Shown: positions 49,942 through 61,691 of the stretch, piece after piece
Layout of the letters: each line of letters starts with the position of its first letter
Position numbering within the stretch: the first letter of the stretch is position 1
From: Spirochaetales bacterium
GTDB lineage: Bacteria > Spirochaetota > Spirochaetia > DSM-2461
Length of the DNA: 64,000 nucleotides
Assembly: GCA_016936555.1 (NCBI GenBank)
Contig: JAFGXR010000004.1
Location: 1-64,000, forward strand
Direction of reading: 5' to 3'
The notes under the pieces: generated by a model
What the model was told of the DNA's origin: nothing
What the model saw: only the letters and a program-made list of their open reading frames with translations
Database searches by the model: none
Program-made: the position numbers and the translations under genes

Positions 49942-51291
49942 TTAAGGGTTCTGATATGTCAAAGTCTCGAACTTTGTAAAATTCGGTATAAAGGCCAGTT
50001 TGACCGTTCCGACCGGGCCGTTTCTCTGCTTGGCTACGATAAGCTGAGTCTCTATCATCTCAGGAGGTCCCTCGTTTTCATCGGAAATGCCTCTGTCTCG
50101 ATGAAGGAACATAACCATATCGGCGTCCTGCTCGATCGCTCCCGACTCTCTCAGATCCGCCAGTCCCGGCTCTTTACCCTCGGATTGACGACCTACCTGG
50201 GAAAGAGCGATTATGGGAATATCCAGTTCCCTTGCCAGAGATTTAAGCGAACGGCTGACCTCCGCCATCTGCTCGTGGCGGGGTATGCTTCTGTCTTCCG
50301 TCGAAATAAGTCCGATGTAGTCGACGATGAGCACTTTCACATCGTGCTTGGACTTCATTCTCCTGGCGGATGAACGGAGCTCGAGCAGTCTGATATTGGG
50401 CGTATCGTCAATATAAAGCGGCGCTTCATAAATGCGTCCCGCCGCATCGGTGAGGGCATTGAAGTCCGATGGTCTGAGAAGACCGGATCGCAGTCTCTGC
50501 GAGTTGATGCGCGCCTCGGCGGCAATGATTCTCTGCATTAGAGACATCGCCGACATTTCCAGCGTGAAGAATCCGCAGGGAATCCCCTGAGCAATGGAAA
50601 TATTGGCGGCCAATGAAAGGGCAAAGGCCGTTTTACCAACCGAAGGACGGGCTCCGATAATAATCATTTCCTGATTCTGGAACCCCGATGTCATATCGTC
50701 CAGCGCGGAGAACCCGCCGGGAACTCCCGTATAATTATCCTTGGTCTGATACCGTTTTTCAATGGCCGTTATAGTCTGCTGAATAACCTCCCGGGCATCC
50801 TTGAAGGAGCCGGAATTCTGCTGACGGTCATTGATTTCAAATATATATTTTTCCGCCTCTTCCAGAATTTCCCCGCATTCGCGGGTTTCGCTGTGGGCGT
50901 TAACGGTGATTTTTCCCGATATATCGATGAGAGTACGCCTGATACTCATTTCCTTGACGATCTTGGCGTAATACTCCACATTGGCGCTGGTGGGTACAGC
51001 TGATGTCAGACCGGTTACATAACCGGGACCTCCCGCTTTCTCCAGGTCGCCCCGGTGACTCAGTTCATTTGTCAGAGTCAGGATATCGACAGCTTCGCCT
51101 TTATTGAAGAGTTCGGAAATGGCGGCGAATATGATCTGATGGGCTGTCTTATAGAAGTCCTCTGAACGGACATGGCGCTGTACCGTATCGAGAACTTCCG
51201 GTTTGAAATTAATTAAAACCGCCCCTAATGCGGCTCTTTCAGCTTCATCATTATGGGGCGGCACTTTGTCTTTCAACGAAGAAATATTCAT
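49942..51291 (-). CDS. dnaB: Replicative DNA helicase DnaB
   Basis: This 449-residue hexameric helicase unwinds DNA at the replication fork. The N-terminal primase-interacting domain (PPHNDEAERAALGAVLIN) is followed by the RecA-like core with Walker A GARPSVGKTAF near residue 218 and LIVDYIGLI as Walker B. VGRQSEGKEPGLADLRESGAIEQDADMVMFLHR is the C-terminal signature. No intein is present. It sits 13 bases after rplI. Confidence 0.98.
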   Translation of the reverse strand: MNISSLKDKVPPHNDEAERAALGAVLINFKPEVLDTVQRHVRSEDFYKTAHQIIFAAISELFNKGEAVDILTLTNELSHRGDLEKAGGPGYVTGLTSAVPTSANVEYYAKIVKEMSIRRTLIDISGKITVNAHSETRECGEILEEAEKYIFEINDRQQNSGSFKDAREVIQQTITAIEKRYQTKDNYTGVPGGFSALDDMTSGFQNQEMIIIGARPSVGKTAFALSLAANISIAQGIPCGFFTLEMSAMSLMQRIIAAEARINSQRLRSGLLRPSDFNALTDAAGRIYEAPLYIDDTPNIRLLELRSSARRMKSKHDVKVLIVDYIGLISTEDRSIPRHEQMAEVSRSLKSLARELDIPIIALSQVGRQSEGKEPGLADLRESGAIEQDADMVMFLHRDRGISDENEGPPEMIETQLIVAKQRNGPVGTVKLAFIPNFTKFETLTYQNP

Positions 51292-51304
51292 TTAATCCTT
51301 TAGA

Positions 51305-51883
51305 TTAAGCTTCGTCTTCAGTTTCTGTTTCGTCAGCAGCGGCGTCTTCAGTATCAGCTTCCACGTCAACTTCAGGCTCAGCAACCACTTCGGGAGCAGC
51401 TTCCTTTACAGGCTCTTCTCTCTTTTCAGCTTTTACTTCAGATGCTTCAACAACAACTTTCAGATCCGCTGTTTCTCCACCGTAAAGTTTGACCTTTACA
51501 GTGTATGTTCCCACAACCTTGATGGAATGATCGGGAACGTCGATTTTTTTACGTTCAACAACGACGCCGAGCTTTGCCAGCTCTTCAACGATGTTGGCGC
51601 TTGTGATAGCTCCGAAAAGCTTTCCTTTTTCACCGACGGGCATAGCGAACTTCAGTTCTTCTTTAGCCATTCTGTCTCTCAGAGACATAGCGTCTTTTCT
51701 CTTGGCATCTTTTCTGGCTTCAATGGCGTTTTTCTTCTGGTTGAAGACTTCAACATTGGCCTTTGTGTAGGGAACGGCGATCCCTTTGGGAATGAGGTAG
51801 TTTCTACCGTATCCGTCAGCAACGACTTTAACGTCGCCCTCTTCGCCGAGGTTGGATAAATCCTGTTTCAATATTACTTTCAT
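51305..51883 (-). CDS. rplI: 50S ribosomal protein L9 with acidic C-terminal extension
   Basis: This protein has 192 residues; the L9 core occupies the first 148 (MKVILKQDLSNLGEEGDVKVVADGYGRNYLIPKGIA at the start). The remaining 45 residues are Glu/Ala/Val-rich and strongly acidic, like the S2 tail in this genome. AAGGAG precedes the ATG by 7 bases. The start overlaps the stop of the membrane gene before it by 4 bases. Confidence 0.97.
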   Translation of the reverse strand: MKVILKQDLSNLGEEGDVKVVADGYGRNYLIPKGIAVPYTKANVEVFNQKKNAIEARKDAKRKDAMSLRDRMAKEELKFAMPVGEKGKLFGAITSANIVEELAKLGVVVERKKIDVPDHSIKVVGTYTVKVKLYGGETADLKVVVEASEVKAEKREEPVKEAAPEVVAEPEVDVEADTEDAAADETETEDEA

Positions 51884-52857
51884 TGGACCAACTCCTTATC
51901 ATTATGTCTGTAGTTTATCCAGAGTTCGGAAACTCCCAGTCCAGGCAGCAGAAAAATAACTGCCAGATTCAGGGGAAAAATAAGAAGCGACAGGGGAATC
52001 AACCATCCCGTCATCCTCCGAATCCCCGGATTCACATTTTTCCTGGCCATCAGGTACTGCAGAAGACCGAATCCCTGCAAACCGTAGAGAGCCCCCGCAA
52101 TGTACAGGCTGTTGCTGACAGCAAACCCGGCTATACCCGGATCCAGATTCATCCCTTTGCCGTTCAGCAGCATACGCAGCAGGACAAGCGTCAGGGGGAT
52201 GAACAGAAACCAGATGAGCCTATCCGGTACATTCAACTCCTGTAATTTCGGCTGCTCGTTTTCCCGCCCCACCGACCTTAAGCCGATGCGCAGTCCGAGC
52301 CGCCACGACAGTGCCAGAAATAAGCAATACACGGCGAGATAACTGCTCAGGAAGGAATTCCTGAATATGCGGAACATACCGTCGGCACTAATGGAACCGA
52401 CAACAGAATCTCCCGGGAATGCCTGTTGGAGCACTGCCAGTGCGCTTTCAATCTGTTCCGTTAAAACCGCCTGAAATGCGGGATCGGAACCGAGAAAGAG
52501 CAGAACCGGAAGAGAAAGCAGACCGGCGAGAGCAGTTGTGATCAGAAATCCCCATACTTTAGAAAAGGATTCCATTTTGAAATTCACTGCATAAAGACCG
52601 CCGATGAGGAGCAGAAAAACAGCAAAATCCGCCATTATCAGACTCCCTGCGGAAACCGCTTCCGGGGTGAGGGCCAGTTTGAGAATCAGATTCCCGAAAA
52701 GGACCCCTGACGCACTGATGAGAAACCCTTTCTCACCGCGCCTGATTGCCATCACCTGAAGAGGGAGCATAAAGAAGAGCAGCAATAGCCCCGTCATACT
52801 CATTATCAGAGAGAGCACCGCCGCAAGCGATACCTCAGTCCACCCTCTTCTATCCAT
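51880..52857 (-). CDS. YybS-like (DUF2232) integral membrane protein
   Basis: This 325-residue protein has about eight hydrophobic helices and no soluble domain. Its position between rpsR and rplI is the place where Firmicutes carry yybS (DUF2232), and the helix pattern agrees with that family. Function is unknown. It starts 3 bases after rpsR and overlaps rplI by 4 bases, so it is tightly coupled to ribosomal-protein expression. Confidence 0.7.
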   Translation of the reverse strand: MDRRGWTEVSLAAVLSLIMSMTGLLLLFFMLPLQVMAIRRGEKGFLISASGVLFGNLILKLALTPEAVSAGSLIMADFAVFLLLIGGLYAVNFKMESFSKVWGFLITTALAGLLSLPVLLFLGSDPAFQAVLTEQIESALAVLQQAFPGDSVVGSISADGMFRIFRNSFLSSYLAVYCLFLALSWRLGLRIGLRSVGRENEQPKLQELNVPDRLIWFLFIPLTLVLLRMLLNGKGMNLDPGIAGFAVSNSLYIAGALYGLQGFGLLQYLMARKNVNPGIRRMTGWLIPLSLLIFPLNLAVIFLLPGLGVSELWINYRHNDKELVQ

Positions 52858-52860
52858 AGC

Positions 52861-53142
52861 TTATTTCGTAACGAAAGGCAGAAGTGCCAGAGTTCTGGAT
52901 CTTTTGATTTCTCTTGCCAGCATTCTCTGGTGCTTTGCACAGGTACCAGTGATTCTTCTGGGGAGGATTTTTCCTCTTTCCGTGATGAATCTTCTGAGAC
53001 TGTCGGGATTTTTGTAATCCACGTCCACTTTTTTGATGCAGAATTTACATACTTTCTTTCTGAAAAACATTCTGCCTCTGCCTTTACCGCCTCTGGCATC
53101 TTTTCTGCCATCCTGGCCCATATCTTTCATATCGTCAGCCAT
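52861..53142 (-). CDS. rpsR: 30S ribosomal protein S18
   Basis: This 93-residue protein has a basic Gly/Arg-rich N-terminal arm, then [25 protein letters not shown] and [26 protein letters not shown]. The C-x2-C and C-x2-H positions suggest the zinc-binding (C+) form of S18. It binds S6 in the ribosome. The gene follows ssb by 30 bases. Confidence 0.98.
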
Positions 53143-53172
53143 TGATTAACTCCTTGTTAGAAATCTCCCGTC

Positions 53173-53646
53173 TTAGAACGGGATGTCGTCCTCAAAACTT
53201 CCTCCGCCGCTGTACGTGTCGAAGGGCTGGGAATTCTGGGACTGATTCGGTTGAGATGGTTGTGACTGATAACTTCTTCCACCGTTATTGTTATTGCTGA
53301 ACGAGGAAGAACCTTCCGATTTGCCGCCGAGCAGCTGGATGTTTGTCACTTCGACGGAGACTTTGCTCCTCTTCATGCCATCCTGCTCCCATCTCTCCTG
53401 ACGGAGTTCTCCTTCCACAGCGACCTGCTGGCCGCGCTGCAGATACTGATTCAGCGATTCGCCTCTTTTCCCCCAGAGCACGCAGTCAAAATAGTTGGCC
53501 TCATCAACCCATTGATCTCCCTGCTTTTTTCTGCGGTTTATGGCAATGCTGAACTTCGTCAGAGCAAAACCCGAAGTTGTATAACTCAGTTCGGCTTCTC
53601 TGGTGAGACGCCCTACAAGTATTACACGATTAATATCACCAGCCAT
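53173..53646 (-). CDS. ssb: Single-stranded DNA-binding protein
   Basis: This 157-residue protein has the OB fold (INRVILVGRLTREAELSYTTSGFALTKFSIAINR; YFDCVLWGKRGESLNQYLQRGQQVAVEGELR), a low-complexity Asn/Gln/Ser/Pro linker and the conserved acidic tip EDDIPF that recruits repair proteins. A GTG lies one codon upstream, but AGGAGG 6 bases before the ATG at 53646 favours the ATG. It lies between rpsF and rpsR, as in most bacteria. Confidence 0.97.
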   Translation of the reverse strand: MAGDINRVILVGRLTREAELSYTTSGFALTKFSIAINRRKKQGDQWVDEANYFDCVLWGKRGESLNQYLQRGQQVAVEGELRQERWEQDGMKRSKVSVEVTNIQLLGGKSEGSSSFSNNNNGGRSYQSQPSQPNQSQNSQPFDTYSGGGSFEDDIPF

Positions 53647-53668
53647 CACTCACCTCCTGTCTGCTGCA

Positions 53669-53950
53669 TTATTTTTCTTGTTTTACGAAGAGATACTTGA
53701 GCACACTGGGAGTCAGCTTGAGATCTTCATCGATCTTGACGAGACTTTCAGGCGCTGCTTTGATGACAAACAGGTGGTAGTGTCCTCTCTCTTCTTTCTT
53801 AACGATATAAGCGAGCTGTCTGTCGCCCATATCCTCTTCGGAAGAGATCTCAACACCGTGTTTCTGGAGCAGTTCTTTTACGGCCTTGAGGCCCACTGCG
53901 TAGTTATCTTCTTTTGTGTTGAAGATACTCACAAATTCATAAGTTCTCAT
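53669..53950 (-). CDS. rpsF: 30S ribosomal protein S6
   Basis: This 93-residue protein contains RTYEFVSIFNTKEDNY, MGDRQLAYIVKKEERGHYHLFVIKA and LKLTPSVLKYLFVK, all standard for S6. AAGGAGG precedes the ATG. It heads the rpsF-ssb-rpsR-yybS-rplI-dnaB operon behind a good promoter and a leader hairpin. Confidence 0.98.
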   Translation of the reverse strand: MRTYEFVSIFNTKEDNYAVGLKAVKELLQKHGVEISSEEDMGDRQLAYIVKKEERGHYHLFVIKAAPESLVKIDEDLKLTPSVLKYLFVKQEK

Positions 53951-53980
53951 TAATAATAATCCTCCTTACGGACTATAGTG

Positions 53981-54001
53981 ATTCGCCCCTACCGGGCGAA
54001 T
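53981..54001 (-). promoter_or_regulatory. Leader hairpin of the rpsF operon
   Basis: A perfect 8-bp stem (ATTCGCCC / GGGCGAAT, arms 53981-53988 and 53994-54001) with a 5-base loop lies about 30 bases before rpsF inside the predicted 5' leader. S6:S18 feedback motifs are known in rpsF leaders of many bacteria; this may be a local version. Confidence 0.5.
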
Positions 54002-54015
54002 AAAGAGGCTGAAAA

Positions 54016-54044
54016 AAAATACCATATGAGACTTATGATGTCAA
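54016..54044 (-). promoter_or_regulatory. Sigma-70 promoter of the rpsF-dnaB operon
   Basis: On the minus strand a perfect TTGACA (54039-54044) and TATTTT (54016-54021) are 17 bases apart. The predicted start near 54009 gives a leader of about 59 bases that includes the hairpin at 53981-54001. Confidence 0.78.
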
Positions 54045-54083
54045 GGTGCATGACATCGCCGCCGATGAAAGAAGAGAGGGACT

Positions 54084-54548
54084 ATGAAACAGAAAATACA
54101 CTATGAGAATGACATTTTTTATCTGAAAACCTACATCAGGATTTTAAGCGATGCCCTGAAGCTCAATATAGACTCATTCATCTTCGCCGAAAAAACACTG
54201 GAGGATATTAATTTCATAGAAAGCACGATCGGCAAACTCTACGGATCGCTCGAGGAAAATCCCCATCTGATCCGACGCCGCGATCACCTCCTCTCGGTCC
54301 TGGAAGTGAAGAAATACTTCATTTCCTACCTCGAAAACCTGACCCGCAGCGGGAATCCCTATTCCAACGACCTGAAGCAGGCGTTCCCGAAGCTGCGGCG
54401 CCTAGTGGCCAATCACACAAGGGATCTCGGCACGCTTCAGAGCCAGCTCGATACACATGAGAAAATCAGCAACACGACAGAACAGATTTCTGAAAACGAG
54501 ATGAGTTTTCTGCTGACACCCTATCTGGATCCCGATTCTGATAACTGA
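54084..54548 (+). CDS. Hypothetical helical protein
   Basis: This 154-residue soluble protein is predicted mostly helical (FYLKTYIRILSDALKLNIDSF; LLSVLEVKKYFISYLENLTR). There is no signal peptide, cysteine cluster or motif that I recognise. A GAGAGGG box precedes the ATG. It is divergent from rpsF and converges on the MBL hydrolase with a 5-base gap. Function is unknown. Confidence 0.65.
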   Translation: MKQKIHYENDIFYLKTYIRILSDALKLNIDSFIFAEKTLEDINFIESTIGKLYGSLEENPHLIRRRDHLLSVLEVKKYFISYLENLTRSGNPYSNDLKQAFPKLRRLVANHTRDLGTLQSQLDTHEKISNTTEQISENEMSFLLTPYLDPDSDN

Positions 54549-54553
54549 CCCTT

Positions 54554-55441
54554 TCAGATTCCCTGCCAGAACAGGATATTGTCTTCAAAAAAAGACCGGA
54601 TCCTCCCTTCATTATAAAGAAAAGAAAGAAAAGACCCTATGGTACTGCCGACCAGAGCGAACTGTCCGTGATCAAGAGAGATTCCGTTTATCCGGCACAT
54701 ATCCCGGAGAATAAAATCAAAGCTCTTTTTTTCACTGAGAATATTCAGAAGGTCCGATTCTATTTTATCAACCGCAGCCATATTGCTCTCCCTGAGTTCG
54801 GCCGCGTCGTCAACCACCATTCCATGTGAAGGAATATAACAGGCAGCCGTCTTTTTCCCTATGAACTCTATCGTTTTCCTGAACTCATTAACATCGAAAA
54901 CAAAGGGGATTTTGTATTTCTCCAGGATATCGGGACCGAAAAGGGCGTCTGCGACAAAGAGACAACTGTCGGGAGACTCGACTCCGATCATGTCAAAGAA
55001 ATGGCCCGGCAGAGGAAAGGTTCCTATTCCCTCTCCGACAGACTGTCCGTCAGAAAGGACGTCAGTGACTGTTGAAGGTCTGGCCAGAAAGAATTTGCTG
55101 CGAAGTTCCTTCACTTCCATTCCGCCCCACAAAAAGGCGGCTTCGAGGCGTGGCGATTCGGTAAAAGCCCTTTCAATGGAAGAAGTATAGATGCGGCAGC
55201 CCAGATTTCTCTGAAGATAATCGTTCCCGCCGATATGGTCCGCATTGGAATGGGTATTGATAATAGCCTGAAGAGACCATCCCCGCTCTTTCAGGATCTG
55301 GTTGATCTTCCGCCCCGACTCCTTGTCGTTACCGCTGTCGACAAGATAGATACCGTCGCTCTGTGCGATAAACCCGATATTGGTCGGGCCTTCAAGAACC
55401 CAGGTGGAGGGTCCCAGCTCTCTTAAATTGCTTCCAGCCAT
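54554..55441 (-). CDS. Metallo-beta-lactamase-fold hydrolase
   Basis: This 295-residue protein contains THSNADHIGGND (about 61-72), a variant of the MBL motif HxHxDH in which the second His is Asn. Later metal positions appear in PLPGHFFDMIG, LFVADALFG and YIPSHGMVV. The C-terminal 80 residues form a helical domain with a possible winged-helix character. The substrate is unknown. The first motif change may alter metal-site occupancy. AGGAG lies 11-12 bases before the ATG. Confidence 0.82.
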   Translation of the reverse strand: MAGSNLRELGPSTWVLEGPTNIGFIAQSDGIYLVDSGNDKESGRKINQILKERGWSLQAIINTHSNADHIGGNDYLQRNLGCRIYTSSIERAFTESPRLEAAFLWGGMEVKELRSKFFLARPSTVTDVLSDGQSVGEGIGTFPLPGHFFDMIGVESPDSCLFVADALFGPDILEKYKIPFVFDVNEFRKTIEFIGKKTAACYIPSHGMVVDDAAELRESNMAAVDKIESDLLNILSEKKSFDFILRDMCRINGISLDHGQFALVGSTIGSFLSFLYNEGRIRSFFEDNILFWQGI

Positions 55442-55779: not shown

Positions 55780-55806
55780 AAAAAAAACCCGGCCCCGCCC
55801 GGCCGG
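55780..55806 (-). terminator. Terminator of the ROK-PFK-PIG-L-SIS operon
   Basis: On the minus strand CCGGCC-N6-GGCCGG (55789-55806) is followed by G and a run of eight Ts. It lies 92 bases past the SIS gene stop. Bases 55807-55897 hold nothing recognisable. Confidence 0.75.
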
Positions 55807-55897: not shown

Positions 55898-56914
55898 TCA
55901 GTCTGCGACCTCGTTGCCGACTTTGCGGGCACGTACCGGCTTATCCAGATCCACGCCCAGAGCGATTCCCGTTTCCACCAGAAGACTCCACCCCGCCACG
56001 AGTTCCACATAGTTGCGGTATTCTCCGCCGTCGGGAATGACTACCGTATCGAAGGAAGTCTGCCGGGTTGAAATGGCTATGATATCCATGCCCACCCCTT
56101 CGGCGATGCACTGGCGGAATTTATCCTCTTCCTCTTCAAAGGGCTCGACAATGATAAGAATATCCTCTTTGTTCATGACTTCCTCGATGCCGTGAGCCGG
56201 GTATGTACCTTCGAGATAATCGGATTTTTTTCTTGTGATTTCATTGGTTTTCAGAGTCAGCTCTTCGGCGACACCGTTATTCCGGCCCGCGAAATAAATC
56301 ATGCCGGCCGAGGCGATCTTTTTAACGATAGCGGGATCGATTTCCCGAGTCAGGGCTTTTTCCACAGCATCTCCGGCTTCCTTCAGCCCGTTCAGCTTTT
56401 CACCTTTCATTGCGGCAATGAGAGCGTGATAGAAGAGTCCCTGCTCCACAACGCTTTTTGTCGCCGCTACGGCGTCTTCGCTTCCGCAGTCGAGAACGAA
56501 GGATCGATCAGGAAGATCGGCAACGGGGGTATTATCAAAAGCCGTAATACCGAACATGCCGGCTTCATGACCTTTTTCTTTCAGTTTGTTATAAAGCCGG
56601 ACCAGTTCTTTTGTCCTGCCGGAATTGGACATTCCGAAAACGGGAATGTTTTCAAGATCGTATTCCAGAGCCTGAGTAGAACCTTCGGTCACCAGTGAGA
56701 GTTTGCCGCCTTTTATCAGGTTTTCATAAATGGCCCTCTTGGCAGGGAACAATCTGCTGGACCCCTCTCCTGTCAACAGAAGCCGCTCGGCTCCCTTGAC
56801 ATCGCGGGCAAAAGGATCGACTTTTGCCTGATCGAAATTTCTCACCACATCGGGAGTTTCCATCATCTCTCTGCAGAGAGCGAATTTGCTGTACTTTTCT
56901 TCATTTAAATTCAT
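55898..56914 (-). CDS. SIS-domain sugar-phosphate isomerase/deaminase
   Basis: This 338-residue protein has two SIS domains like the isomerase half of GlmS. The first has LLTGEGSSRLFPAKRAI and PVFGMSNSGRTKELVRLYN (sugar-phosphate loop), and the second has MIYFAGRNNGVAEELTLKTNEITRKKSDYLEGTYPAHGIEE. The latter resembles the GlmS-type segment holding the active-site Glu and His. Archaeal GlmD, a glucosamine-6-phosphate deaminase, has this layout and size. A GTG precedes the ATG, but AGAGG at 6 bases supports the ATG at 56914. It overlaps the deacetylase gene by 14 bases and ends the operon. Confidence 0.85.
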   Translation of the reverse strand: MNLNEEKYSKFALCREMMETPDVVRNFDQAKVDPFARDVKGAERLLLTGEGSSRLFPAKRAIYENLIKGGKLSLVTEGSTQALEYDLENIPVFGMSNSGRTKELVRLYNKLKEKGHEAGMFGITAFDNTPVADLPDRSFVLDCGSEDAVAATKSVVEQGLFYHALIAAMKGEKLNGLKEAGDAVEKALTREIDPAIVKKIASAGMIYFAGRNNGVAEELTLKTNEITRKKSDYLEGTYPAHGIEEVMNKEDILIIVEPFEEEEDKFRQCIAEGVGMDIIAISTRQTSFDTVVIPDGGEYRNYVELVAGWSLLVETGIALGVDLDKPVRARKVGNEVAD

Positions 56915-57677
56915 CACTAACCTCTATATAGTCTTTTAATTCGTTCTGGATCAGAGGAAATGTTTCGAATCCTCCGCCCAGGTGCTGCCAGAAGCATTCG
57001 GCGTATTCGAACCCGCAGAGCTTTCCGATCTGGCGGTTGTAGTCGAGGGCTTCCTCAAAAAAATTATCCATATTGAACATTTTCTTCATCAGACTGATCT
57101 GCGACTGATGGCAGGCCAGCATTTTCTCTTTTGTCTCCACAGCGCTGCTGATATCGACAAAGAACTGGGGGGTCGCCATAGGTTCCCCCAATGGTCCCCG
57201 GAGAGACATGGGCGCCGTATGGTAAAAAAGGGGCGTCACGTCCAGAGGAGCTTCCCGGCAGGGAGCGTTGGGAAGGGTCGCCTGCATGGTCGCCACATCG
57301 ACAATCGCCGCCGTCGTTCTGTGGTCCGCATGATAATCATTCGGCACATGGGTCATAACCAGGCCGGGTTTCACTTTCCTGACCAGTTCCAGAGTTCTGA
57401 TCCGGGCTTCAAGCGTATCGTAGACATAGCCGTCGCGCTGATCGAGGCAGTAGTATTCCGCGCCGAGTACTCCGGCGGCTCTGGCCGCTTCTCCCTTCCG
57501 GACGGCCATGGTCTCCTCTTCACCGGTATCGATTCCGCCCAGACCTCCGGCGGTCATCGTGGCGATGGCTATGCGGTATCCCTTATCTTTCAGAAGCTTG
57601 AGCGTTCCGGAACACCAGGCTTCCGTATCATCGGGATGGGCCTGTATGGCCAGCACGGTTTTGTTAAATCTTCCCAC
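56901..57677 (-). CDS. PIG-L family N-acetyl-sugar deacetylase
   Basis: This 258-residue zinc hydrolase has AHPDDTE near residue 13, where the His and second Asp bind zinc and the first Asp is the usual general base. NDYHADHRTTA provides the later His. Archaeal diacetylchitobiose deacetylase (Dac) and MshB belong to this family. A TTG at 57683 abuts the AAGGAG box and cannot be the start; the GTG at 57677 is 6 bases from it. The box overlaps the PFK stop codon (TGAAGGAG). Downstream it overlaps the SIS gene, so deacetylation and deamination/isomerisation are linked. Confidence 0.85.
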   Translation of the reverse strand: MGRFNKTVLAIQAHPDDTEAWCSGTLKLLKDKGYRIAIATMTAGGLGGIDTGEEETMAVRKGEAARAAGVLGAEYYCLDQRDGYVYDTLEARIRTLELVRKVKPGLVMTHVPNDYHADHRTTAAIVDVATMQATLPNAPCREAPLDVTPLFYHTAPMSLRGPLGEPMATPQFFVDISSAVETKEKMLACHQSQISLMKKMFNMDNFFEEALDYNRQIGKLCGFEYAECFWQHLGGGFETFPLIQNELKDYIEVSDEFK

Positions 57678-57688
57678 ATTCAACTCCT

Positions 57689-58891
57689 TCAGGCGAATTT
57701 TTCTTCCAGCCTGGTATAGGCCGGCAGTTCGGGAATGAGCGGTTTAATGTAGTCCAGGAATTTGTCCGTAACGAAGTTCCCCTCTTCGTTGATAAAATCT
57801 TCGGGCATCGACTTGGCCCGGACGGCAACGCTGGAAAGCGGAGCCGTTCCGTATTCGAAAACCACATTGCCGTCTTTTTCACCCCGCTCGATTGTCACCA
57901 TGACCGCGGACGTTCCGGCATTCGCCAGCTCCACGGCTTTGACACCGCAATCGAAGGCACTCTGGAGATCTTCGGGGATGGCTCTATCAATAGCGCTCAT
58001 GATAAGGGATTCGGTAATCTGAAACTCCCCTCTGAGACCGAGTTTGTCCGAGAGCATTTTATGGACATTCAGTCCGACGCTGGCCCCGCCCATGGCTCCG
58101 AACTCGGTGTTTCCGAATTTGTCCGCATCCCGGGAGGCGCTGACCGGTGTGCCGTCGGCGTACTTCAGGCCCTCACTCACCACAACCGAGACCCATCCGT
58201 ATTTATCGATGAACTTTTTGGCGTCTTCGAGAAACCTGTCCGCATCAAAGACCCTCTCGGGGCAGTAGATCAGATGGGGCGCGTCATCTTCGTGCTTTTT
58301 GGCCAGAACCGTAGCGGCCGCCAGCCATCCCGCATCGCGGCCGATAGTCTGATATACGACGAACTGGTCCACCTTTCTCATATCTCTTGCCAGAGCTCCC
58401 GCCTGCTGAACCGAAAGAGCGTTGTAACGGGCGGCGGAAGCAAACCCGGGGGTATGGTCCGTACCGAATAGATCGTTATCGACAGTCTTGGGTATTCCCA
58501 CGCCGTAAAGTTCGTACCCCTGAGCGCGGCAGTATTCCTCAACCCTGTGGATGGTATCCATCGTATCGTTTCCGCCGATCAGAAAGAAAAAGCGGATGTT
58601 GTATTTTTTAAAGACCTCGAGAATGCGGGGGAAATCTTCATCCCGCACTTTATGGCGCGATGATCCCAGCGCGGAGGACGGGGTTTTTCTCAAACCGTCT
58701 ATGACAGCATCGCTCTGGGCCGATAGATCCCAGAGATCTTCTTTCATAAAGCCTTCGATCCCGAAGTGCATGCCATAAAGCGTTTCAATAGCTTCGGTCT
58801 TTTTTGCAGCCGACATAACGCCGGCAAGCGATGAATTGATGACGGAGGTAGGACCTCCCGACTGCCCGACGACAGCATTTCCCTTTATCAT
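57689..58891 (-). CDS. 6-phosphofructokinase, PPi-dependent type
   Basis: This 400-residue enzyme phosphorylates fructose 6-phosphate. The diagnostic sites are GGNDT (106-110) and PKTVDND (134-140). An Asp after GGN and a Lys before TVDND are the combination associated with PPi use; ATP enzymes have Gly at both places. The first Asp of the usual GGDD is Asn. QTIGRDAGWLAA and the substrate-binding MGGASVGLN also fit. It follows the ROK gene by 20 bases. The operon position suggests feeding of fructose 6-phosphate from an amino sugar. Confidence 0.92.
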   Translation of the reverse strand: MIKGNAVVGQSGGPTSVINSSLAGVMSAAKKTEAIETLYGMHFGIEGFMKEDLWDLSAQSDAVIDGLRKTPSSALGSSRHKVRDEDFPRILEVFKKYNIRFFFLIGGNDTMDTIHRVEEYCRAQGYELYGVGIPKTVDNDLFGTDHTPGFASAARYNALSVQQAGALARDMRKVDQFVVYQTIGRDAGWLAAATVLAKKHEDDAPHLIYCPERVFDADRFLEDAKKFIDKYGWVSVVVSEGLKYADGTPVSASRDADKFGNTEFGAMGGASVGLNVHKMLSDKLGLRGEFQITESLIMSAIDRAIPEDLQSAFDCGVKAVELANAGTSAVMVTIERGEKDGNVVFEYGTAPLSSVAVRAKSMPEDFINEEGNFVTDKFLDYIKPLIPELPAYTRLEEKFA

Positions 58892-58911
58892 TAACCAATC
58901 TCCTGTTTATC

Positions 58912-60033
58912 TTATCTTTCCTGTTCAAACCTGCTGAACAGATCGTATTCCCTGATTTCCGCGCCCTCTCTGTCCCCTTTGAGAACGGGGGTCTGAAAAA
59001 GCTTCTCCACAAACATGGAAGCGGCTCCGTATGCCGTATCGAGCTCGTCGGTCCGGGGGAAATTCACCTTGAAGGACGTTCCGGACATATGCTTCTCCAC
59101 GTGACTCCGGAACCTGGTAAAATGACCGCCGAAAAAAATCTCTCCCGGATCGAAAACATTGAAAATGGGAATGAGAAAGTTGAAGAGCTTATCGAGATAT
59201 ATTCCCAGCGCCTTTTCATCAATTTCCCAGCCGGTCCCGCTCTGCCTGTAAATATTGGCGGCGTCGCGCGATAAAAGATCCTCAGGCAGCTCTCCGGCAG
59301 CGGACCCGGAGCCGTAATACACTTCGCCGCCCAGAACGATTCCCATACCGATCTCGATTTCCTCGGGAGCTTCCTCCCCCTCGAGCCGATGAAGTTTCCA
59401 GATGATGTTGAGAAAGTTATCGAGCCTTCTCTCTTTATTCCGTTCCAGCTGTCCCCAGGCGCAGCAGTTGGCGTCGTTATCGATAATAACGGGAACAGGG
59501 AATTTCCCCTCGGCTTCCCGGTTGAAATCCAGTTCGCGAATATGGAGAGATGTTGCTTTACGGACAAAACCCTGTTCTGTATCGACTATGGCAGGTATGC
59601 CTACGCCAATTCCGATGAGGGGAACAGGCATTTCATTTATGTCATTCTCAAGGAGACTGTAGATTCGCAGTATCGTTTCCACAAGCCCCATGAATTTCAT
59701 ATCGCCCCTCCACTCTTTCAGAATCTCTCCGTTGAGATTCGTCAGAACGGCGCTGAAGGAACTGTTCTGAAGATCGATCCCCAGAATCGAGCCGAAATTC
59801 TCATTGATGCCCAGAAGAACGGGGCGTCGTCCCCCTTTAGACGGCGAGCTTCCCTCGGAAAGGACCTTGACGATAGACATCTCCAGAAGCGGATTAACCA
59901 GATTAGTAATTGTAGACCGATCCAGTCCCAGCTGCCGGGAAATCTCAATCCGGCTTATCCCGCTGCTCACTCTAAGTGTCTGTAAAACATGGGATCTGTT
60001 GACAATCCTCTGCAACTGTTTGCTGTCGGGCAT
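58912..60033 (-). CDS. ROK-family transcriptional repressor (NagC/XylR type)
   Basis: This 373-residue protein has an N-terminal winged helix (NRSHVLQTLRVSSGISRIEISRQLGLDRSTITNLVNPLLEM) followed by the ROK sugar-kinase-like domain (ILGIDLQNSSFSAVLTNLNG; GIGVGIPAIVD; VPVIIDNDANCCAWGQLE). The C-H-C zinc motif normal in ROK proteins is not obvious. A GTG lies seven codons upstream, but AAGGAG 5 bases before the ATG at 60033 decides the start. It is first in its operon and probably represses it. A XylR-like palindrome lies at its promoter. Confidence 0.9.
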   Translation of the reverse strand: MPDSKQLQRIVNRSHVLQTLRVSSGISRIEISRQLGLDRSTITNLVNPLLEMSIVKVLSEGSSPSKGGRRPVLLGINENFGSILGIDLQNSSFSAVLTNLNGEILKEWRGDMKFMGLVETILRIYSLLENDINEMPVPLIGIGVGIPAIVDTEQGFVRKATSLHIRELDFNREAEGKFPVPVIIDNDANCCAWGQLERNKERRLDNFLNIIWKLHRLEGEEAPEEIEIGMGIVLGGEVYYGSGSAAGELPEDLLSRDAANIYRQSGTGWEIDEKALGIYLDKLFNFLIPIFNVFDPGEIFFGGHFTRFRSHVEKHMSGTSFKVNFPRTDELDTAYGAASMFVEKLFQTPVLKGDREGAEIREYDLFSRFEQER

Positions 60034-60137: not shown

Positions 60138-60166
60138 AATATATACCTTTTCAGTTTTTTTGACAA
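60138..60166 (-). promoter_or_regulatory. Sigma-70 promoter of the ROK operon
   Basis: On the minus strand TTGTCA (60161-60166) and TATATT (60138-60143) are 17 bases apart, with a predicted start near 60131 inside the palindrome. The -35 box overlaps that of the divergent promoter. Confidence 0.7.
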
Positions 60167-60188: not shown

Positions 60189-60230
60189 TATCTATTTGTG
60201 ATATCCTTTCTGCAGAAGGAGAATGGAAAG

Positions 60231-61691
60231 ATGATGGAAAAATTTAAAAAAACCATTATAGACAGGGATCTGACACTGCAAATTCTCGATAAATACAACA
60301 GGGGCGAATACGATCATGTTGAGCCTGTCATAGCCGAATCGTTCCCTCCAGTGGATAATGAGACAATTATTGATATGAGCGGTTCCCCTTCCTATGAAGG
60401 CAGGACCGGTGAAATAAGCGCCAATCTCTTAAAATACGGAATCAATCCGGAGGATTTTATAAATCGGAATCAGGAAAAGTCGAAGCTTAATCAGACCGAT
60501 CTCGAAAAAATCGGATCATTGCTTATGCCTTTTTATTCCTTCGGCATACTGAACGGAGGTTCCGCGACCTCCTACGCCGACACAAAGAAAAACAGAGCCT
60601 TCAGCAGGGAGCTTTTTAAACTGACCGAGAAGGAATTCCGGACTCTTGCCGAACTTTCGGTTGGCCGGGCCAAAGGGATCACGCCCGCCTTTCTCAATAG
60701 AGACGGAACAGCCGGACCTTCATTCATTGAACTGAAGATGAGGGCTCTTCTCATAGCAGGGGTTCCCTCTCTTTTTCAGATGACCAGCCACTTCAACAAT
60801 GACTCGGTAAGAGAAACCTACAAGTCATACGAGAAAAGTCCTTTCCTGAAGGATCTGATCAGCCTGAGAGACAACAACATCTGCCGGGTCCGCACCGGAG
60901 TCCAGCCTCTTCTGGCCGCTTATACCCATAGCCGTTCCGGAAAAAAGAAAAAGCTTTTCGAACAGGAGAACGGTGAACTTCTTCCTCTTCCGGGCGGTCA
61001 CGGCCAGTGTTTCATAACTTTAAAGGAGACCTTTTCCGAATTGCAGAAACAGGGAATCCGTTTTATTTCCATCGGCAATGTCGATAACTCAGGCTATACT
61101 CCCGATCCCCTGAGCCTGGCCGTTCTGGCGCTGTCGGGGAAACAGGCCGGTTTCGACTTCTCCTACAAAACTCCTGTCGACGTAAAAGGAGGCGTTCTCG
61201 TCAGGGATCAGAGGGGATGTCTCAACTGCGCCGATCTGGGCGTGGCGATTGATTATCAGTTTGTAAAGGATGCCCAGGCGAGAGGCGAATCGATTCTGTT
61301 CAACTGCGCAACCGGTCTGTTCAATCTCGATTACCTTATGGATAATATCGACCGGATCATAGATTCTCTGCCGATGCGGTTCAGCGATCAGGACAAGGAT
61401 GCGGGACTCTACTCCCAGGCAGAACAGGTTACCTGGGAAGTGATCGGACTCCTCGACGATATTCTCATCTTTGCCGTTGATAAATACGACCGCTTTCTGG
61501 CGGCCAAACTGATCATGGAAAATCTGATGACAAGCGGCATTAAAACCGATGACTACCCGGAAGACCTGAAAGAGCTCTCGGAGAAGCTGAGCACCGGGCT
61601 TGAAAAAAAACTCTCAACAGTCTACGGTCTGAAGCTGAATAAAGGCCGGTGGGAACCCCTTCCGGCTGATAAACTGGAGCTGAAGCCATGA
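60231..61691 (+). CDS. UDPGP-family nucleotidyltransferase (UTP-sugar-1-phosphate uridylyltransferase-like)
   Basis: This protein of about 487 residues resembles eukaryote-type UDP-glucose/UDP-sugar pyrophosphorylases. [17 protein letters not shown] near residue 106 takes the place of the nucleotide-binding GGxGTxxG-x-K loop, LPLPGGHGQ near 256 is the uridine-binding PGGHGD-like site, and ISIGNVDN follows. The P-loop is divergent, so activity may differ. A GTG frame opens 11 codons earlier, but AAGGAG 9 bases before the ATG at 60231 decides the start. Its stop overlaps hisI by 4 bases. It would supply UDP-sugars for glycan synthesis. Confidence 0.75.

Follow-up and report, generated by a model that had tools for sequence, protein, structure and literature searches.

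Four genes that lie on the minus strand of the 64,000-nucleotide stretch analysed here (the window) encode, from first to last, a ROK-family regulator, a PPi-type phosphofructokinase (PFK), a PIG-L deacetylase and a SIS-domain protein (Table 1). The close packing reported in a preliminary description of this DNA was reproduced in full, with two gaps (20 and 11 nt) and one overlap of 14 nt. The terminator that it placed at the end of the operon is represented by a hairpin and T8 behind the SIS gene; since shuffled sequence yields as many hairpins in the same scan, the evidence for it consists of its position and the T tract.

Table 1. Genes and predicted control elements of the operon (window coordinates)
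Feature	Position	Strand	Evidence
ROK-family transcriptional regulator, N-terminal winged HTH	58912..60033	-	Pfam ROK 54.7 bits, above gathering
PPi-type phosphofructokinase, PRK14072 subfamily	57689..58891	-	Pfam PFK 148.6 bits, above gathering
PIG-L (LmbE) metal-dependent deacetylase	56901..57677	-	Pfam PIG-L 88.4 bits, above gathering
SIS protein, proposed glucosamine-6-phosphate deaminase	55898..56914	-	Pfam SIS 49.8 bits, above gathering
Promoter-like site TTGTCA - 17 nt - TATATT	60138..60166	-	Sequence scan; region conserved in L054
Proposed ROK operator TTGTTGATTTAATAAACAA = TTGTT-N9-AACAA	60115..60133	-	4 nt behind -10 hexamer
Terminator-like GC-rich hairpin, then T8	55789..55806	-	Just behind SIS gene

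Several Spirochaetales (the window, 49942-55441, and loci L055, L061 and L099) have the operon next to an rpsF-ssb-rpsR-rplI-dnaB cluster and to a conserved ORF of about 150 aa (54084-54548 in the window), which indicates an old and stable location. On the other side, a divergent gene (60198-61691), which may share the ROK-controlled region, encodes a distant member of the UDPGP nucleotidyltransferase family (its best solved relative is 7ppr, E 8e-5); locus L054 also has a divergent gene of similar size.

The regulator had been described as a NagC/XylR-type repressor, of which the ROK-family assignment stands, in a diverged form, and NagC orthology does not, the protein reaching 52 bits against a cut-off of 650 for the NagC model NF047937. 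Its ROK domain scores above gathering and the winged HTH gives weak matches. Neither the EIGH histidine nor the CxCGxxGC zinc motif is present in it, whereas the ROK kinases that flank related loci in Bacteroidota have both; NagC is thus no guide to its ligand. The proposed operator TTGTTGATTTAATAAACAA lies upstream of the ROK gene, directly after the promoter-like site, and the TTGTT-N9-AACAA pattern is found at the ROK promoter in 4/4 readable ROK-first operons (window, L054, L061 and L099); in 1.26 Mb of genome-collection loci it occurs seven times, three of them at ROK promoters. The natural reading of these sequences is that the ROK protein is an autoregulating repressor acting at this predicted operator.

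With 417.4 bits against a cut-off of 273, the PFK falls within the PPi-PFK subfamily PRK14072, which bears out its earlier description as a PPi-type enzyme. It carries the GGNDT and PKTVDND segments, in which an Asp and a Lys tell PPi-using from ATP-using PFKs, and which are retained in 73/81 and 78/81 of the operon PFKs, respectively. The genome of the window encodes three further PFKs, so the operon copy looks dedicated.

The SIS and PIG-L proteins

In an alignment with E. coli GlmS, AgaS and FrlB and with the NagB-II structure 3hba, residues K222, E225, H241 and K331 of the SIS protein correspond to K485, E488, H504 and K603 of GlmS, and all four are invariant in 45 SIS relatives. Fold and catalytic residues together place the protein in the superfamily of GlmS isomerase, NagB-II and GlmD. 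The same alignment shows that E. coli AgaS lacks the equivalent of GlmS K603 and that E. coli FrlB lacks both lysines. The family profile matches GlmS, NagB-II and GlmD, far below every equivalog cut-off: the SIS protein scores 29.4 bits with the GlmD model NF041128 (cut-off 580) and 35.3 bits with the NagB-II model NF046059 (cut-off 430), to which all 45 members have weak matches with E-values down to 1.8e-14. None of the 45 members matched the AgaS model (E up to 0.01) or the FrlB model. The grouping with FrlB- or AgaS-type enzymes that the preliminary description had considered fatal to its proposal was thus not found, residues and models fitting neither.

The predicted structure of the SIS protein (pLDDT 93) retrieved, as best matches by E-value, Pyrococcus PH0510, the P. 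furiosus glucosamine-6-phosphate deaminase (GlmD) and GlmS; the ranking is not specific, GlmS having a higher TM-score than the Pyrococcus matches. Matches of the single sequence to PDB entries of designed PPR proteins were repeat artefacts that vanished with the family profile. In the tree the SIS clade is united with 100/100 support, and it is this unity that counts as evidence; the deep placement among GlmS, NagB-II, AgaS and FrlB has no more than 71/64 support, on very long branches, in a tree drawn without GlmD. By these sequence comparisons, the SIS protein represents a separate family.

The PIG-L protein belongs to the PF02585 superfamily, its score in Table 1 comparing with a gathering threshold of 28.2 bits, and the HPDD and HxDHR motifs (H14, D16, D17, H116, D118 and H119) are invariant in its clade (37 relatives). 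The archaeal diacetylchitobiose deacetylase (Dac) is its top solved relative in the profile search (99 bits) and ranks first in the fold search with the predicted structure, at 24-26% identity. In both rankings BshB-type enzymes follow close behind, and mycothiol and teicoplanin deacetylases stand clearly lower; the fold ranking is not specific, with BshB chains scoring nearly as well as Dac. The best curated model is BshB1 (TIGR04001), at 116.7 bits, below its cut-off of 182.5. BshC had no match in the genome of the window or in 10 other operon genomes and only partial matches below cut-off in G011; two operon genomes (G163 and G147) do encode it. Every LmbE enzyme identified up to a 2014 review has a substrate with an N-acetyl- or N-acylglucosamine core (PMC4101496).

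Conservation of the unit and distribution of NagA and NagB

Close homologues of the SIS protein (46-63% identity) are encoded in 13 of the 296 Spirochaetota genomes searched, besides that of the window; they mostly adjoin a PFK gene, and in seven a PIG-L gene lies alongside. In a scan of a genome collection the best 80 of 530 SIS relatives, ranked by similarity to the window family, came mostly from Bacteroidota, with spirochaetes and some Planctomycetota. Among 90 distinct SIS loci, a PFK gene adjoins the SIS gene in 77, forming the tightest pair in the unit, and a PIG-L gene of the window type is found in 68, with a second PIG-L clade in six more (74/90 in all); genes of the ROK-kinase cluster are close by in 57/90 and a CBM9-like protein in 54/90. 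These fractions are biased, the collection loci having been chosen by similarity to the window family, and some of the remaining loci end at contig edges. The order PFK, PIG-L, SIS is constant across loci, usually with short spacing, and its recurrence in dozens of genomes of two phyla indicates that the arrangement is not due to chance. The question raised earlier, whether this gene order recurs in other spirochaetes, is thereby answered for Spirochaetota and Bacteroidota alike. No description of the gene set was found in the literature searched, which lay mostly outside subscription journals.

The PIG-L gene of the second clade lies beside PFK and SIS in L038-L043 (on the opposite strand in L038), and a homologue of aldose-1-epimerase often accompanies it. 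No same-strand PIG-L gene of either clade is nearby in 16/90 SIS loci (L074, L077, L088, L126-L129, L132 and others), some of them at contig ends, and a few of these loci may serve sugars that are already deacetylated. In other genomes, classical NagB carries a fused PIG-L domain of a third type (PRK02122). Different PIG-L types are thus each paired with a deaminase-type partner, which suggests that the two proteins act in one pathway. Two loci taken as candidates for such fusions (L144 and L145) were rejected; their frames of 656-690 aa join NagB to a NagA-like amidohydrolase domain.

Genes for GH20, GH125, CBM9-like and aldose-epimerase proteins occur near some loci. In Bacteroidota ROK-family sugar kinases adjoin the unit and score best with a glucokinase subfamily model. 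GH125 alpha-mannosidase homologues lie upstream of a kinase-CBM9-PFK-PIG-L-SIS cluster in L058, L060, L124 and 11 other Bacteroidota loci, where N-glycan breakdown may be the source of the sugar. APH-family kinase genes with a NahK-like fold adjoin the unit in L032, L034 and L035, a GH20 homologue being confirmed in L035.

The preliminary description was right that the window contains neither NagA nor NagB. Its hint that NagA is missing fails for the genome as a whole, since a nagA gene (387 bits, above cut-off) is found on another contig near a sugar ABC transporter; for nagB, whose presence elsewhere it had proposed to check, none is detectable in this 95% complete draft. Both PF01182 proteins of the genome proved to be 6-phosphogluconolactonases (179-183 bits, cut-off 124) and were rejected as NagB. 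At the search sensitivity used, GlmS and the operon protein are the only SIS-domain proteins of the genome, which makes the latter the obvious candidate for a deaminase. No free-standing ROK kinase was recognised in it: the ROK matches are frames of 352-435 aa, and those whose N-termini were read carry an HTH.

Two closed, single-contig genomes that carry the cluster (G006 and G049, 99-100% complete) lack both nagA and nagB, and neither gene was found in a third cluster-bearing genome (G142, 99% complete), where a weak match of the PF01182 type (E 3.5e-5) was all that appeared. A NagB above cut-off is found in 1/14 spirochaete genomes with the SIS family compared to 111/282 without it (Fisher p 0.011), and monofunctional NagB in 1/34 non-spirochaete SIS genomes compared to 41/198 of one background order (Fisher p 0.006), both tests ignoring genome relatedness and assembly quality.

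Proposed route and its alternatives

The operon probably serves the catabolism of N-acetylated amino sugars, with N-acetylglucosamine (GlcNAc) as the likeliest substrate. An amino-sugar pathway had been put forward in the preliminary description, and it is well supported by the catalytic residues of the SIS protein, the profile and fold matches to GlmD, NagB-II, GlmS and Dac, the genome context and the undetected NagB. In the route proposed from this evidence, PIG-L would remove the acetyl group, GlcNAc-6-phosphate being a somewhat likelier substrate than the free sugar; the SIS protein would then deaminate and isomerise glucosamine-6-phosphate to fructose-6-phosphate and ammonia, and the dedicated PFK would convert the product into fructose-1,6-bisphosphate. 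The ROK repressor, encoded by the first gene of the operon, would bind the conserved TTGTT-N9-AACAA box at the promoter until released by a pathway sugar. Two observations on the genome of the window speak against this explanation: with NagA present, it could do without a further deacetylase, and no free-standing ROK kinase was recognised in it as a source of the 6-phosphate.

Thermococcus and Pyrococcus break down chitin with the PIG-L deacetylase Dac and the SIS-type deaminase GlmD. The operon likewise combines a PIG-L deacetylase with a presumed SIS-type glucosamine-6-phosphate deaminase, and both archaeal enzymes are top fold matches; unlike the archaeal pair, its proteins are coupled to a PPi-PFK and a ROK regulator, with identities of about 25% and, for the SIS protein, 29 of 580 bits for GlmD. 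The earlier label "archaeal-style" therefore survives as analogy and falls as orthology, SIS and PIG-L being separate families, and the best reading is that the operon would work like the Dac/GlmD pair without being orthologous to it.

Three bacterial systems invite the same comparison. NagB-II of Shewanella (SO3506; PDB 8eol and 3hba) is a SIS-type glucosamine-6-phosphate deaminase that is found as a profile match and shares its active-site residues with the operon protein, down to the C-terminal lysine of a ...DKPxxxxKV motif; the operon protein differs in its score (35 of 430 bits), its separate clade and its partner, which is PIG-L instead of the amidohydrolase NagA. The NagB-PIG-L fusions (PRK02122, "long NagB", described as extended at the C-terminus by some 500 residues; PMC1484493) also join PIG-L to a glucosamine-6-phosphate deaminase and also occur in Spirochaetota and Bacteroidota, whereas their deaminase is classical NagB and not SIS, and their PIG-L belongs to a different clade. 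The classical NagA/NagB system with NagC shares the presumed net chemistry and a ROK-family regulator; in contrast, the operon enzymes share no homology with NagA and NagB, its regulator is no NagC orthologue and a PFK is built into the operon.

The steps might also run in the archaeal order, PIG-L acting on free GlcNAc or diacetylchitobiose and the resulting glucosamine receiving its phosphate before the SIS protein deaminates it. This order is a possible, if less probable, alternative to deacetylation of GlcNAc-6-phosphate. It agrees with the first rank of Dac among the PIG-L relatives by profile and by fold, with the glucokinase-like scores of the flanking Bacteroidota kinases, and with the fact that genomes with NagA, such as that of the window, already own a GlcNAc-6-phosphate deacetylase. 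However, other PIG-L domains are fused directly to NagB, which suggests action on its immediate precursor, GlcNAc-6-phosphate, and an exo-glucosaminidase was not noticed, in passing, among the genes beside the operon.

A route for N-acetylgalactosamine, in which an AgaS-like SIS protein would turn galactosamine-6-phosphate into tagatose-6-phosphate and the PFK would be a tagatose-6-phosphate kinase, appears improbable. The dedicated fourth PFK, its tight pairing with SIS and the epimerase-family and APH (NahK-fold) kinase genes near some loci would all fit such a route, but AgaS lacks the GlmS-K603 lysine that is invariant in the operon SIS family, the AgaS model finds no member of that family even at E 0.01, and a tagatose-bisphosphate aldolase was not seen among the adjoining genes.

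Still harder to sustain is a function in deglycation, with the SIS protein as a fructosamine-6-phosphate (Amadori) deglycase and PIG-L as an amidase for N-acylated conjugates: SIS deglycases do have the same fold, Glu and His, and the profile weakly matches the FrlB-type structure 3eua (34 bits), but FrlB lacks the two lysines that the operon protein has, its model matches none of the 45 members and no FrlD-like kinase is present beside the genes. Finally, that PIG-L serves bacillithiol or other thiol biosynthesis and lies beside SIS and PFK incidentally can be dismissed almost entirely, and bacillithiol synthesis was rejected for the window, because, although BshB1 is the best curated model and two operon genomes encode BshC, the thiol-type outcome foreseen earlier as a refutation did not occur: PIG-L scores below the thiol cut-offs, it is strictly linked to PFK and SIS, and BshC is unmatched in the genome of the window and in the 10 others.

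Beyond this genome, we lean towards regarding PFK-PIG-L-SIS as a widespread and so far unrecognised amino-sugar module shared by Spirochaetota, Bacteroidota and some Planctomycetota, in which each of two separate PIG-L clades would be paired with a new family of SIS-type glucosamine-6-phosphate deaminases that displaces NagB and often NagA, and in which a dedicated PFK would tie the entry into glycolysis to pyrophosphate instead of ATP. If so, the module would close a gap in the amino-sugar metabolism of many environmental anaerobes that, without NagB or without both NagA and NagB, appear unable to use GlcNAc. It would also provide a second bacterial family of SIS-type glucosamine-6-phosphate deaminases, give a part in catabolism to PIG-L proteins, for which deacetylases of thiol biosynthesis are the nearest curated models, and point to a PFK that uses PPi and is set aside for a single sugar route.
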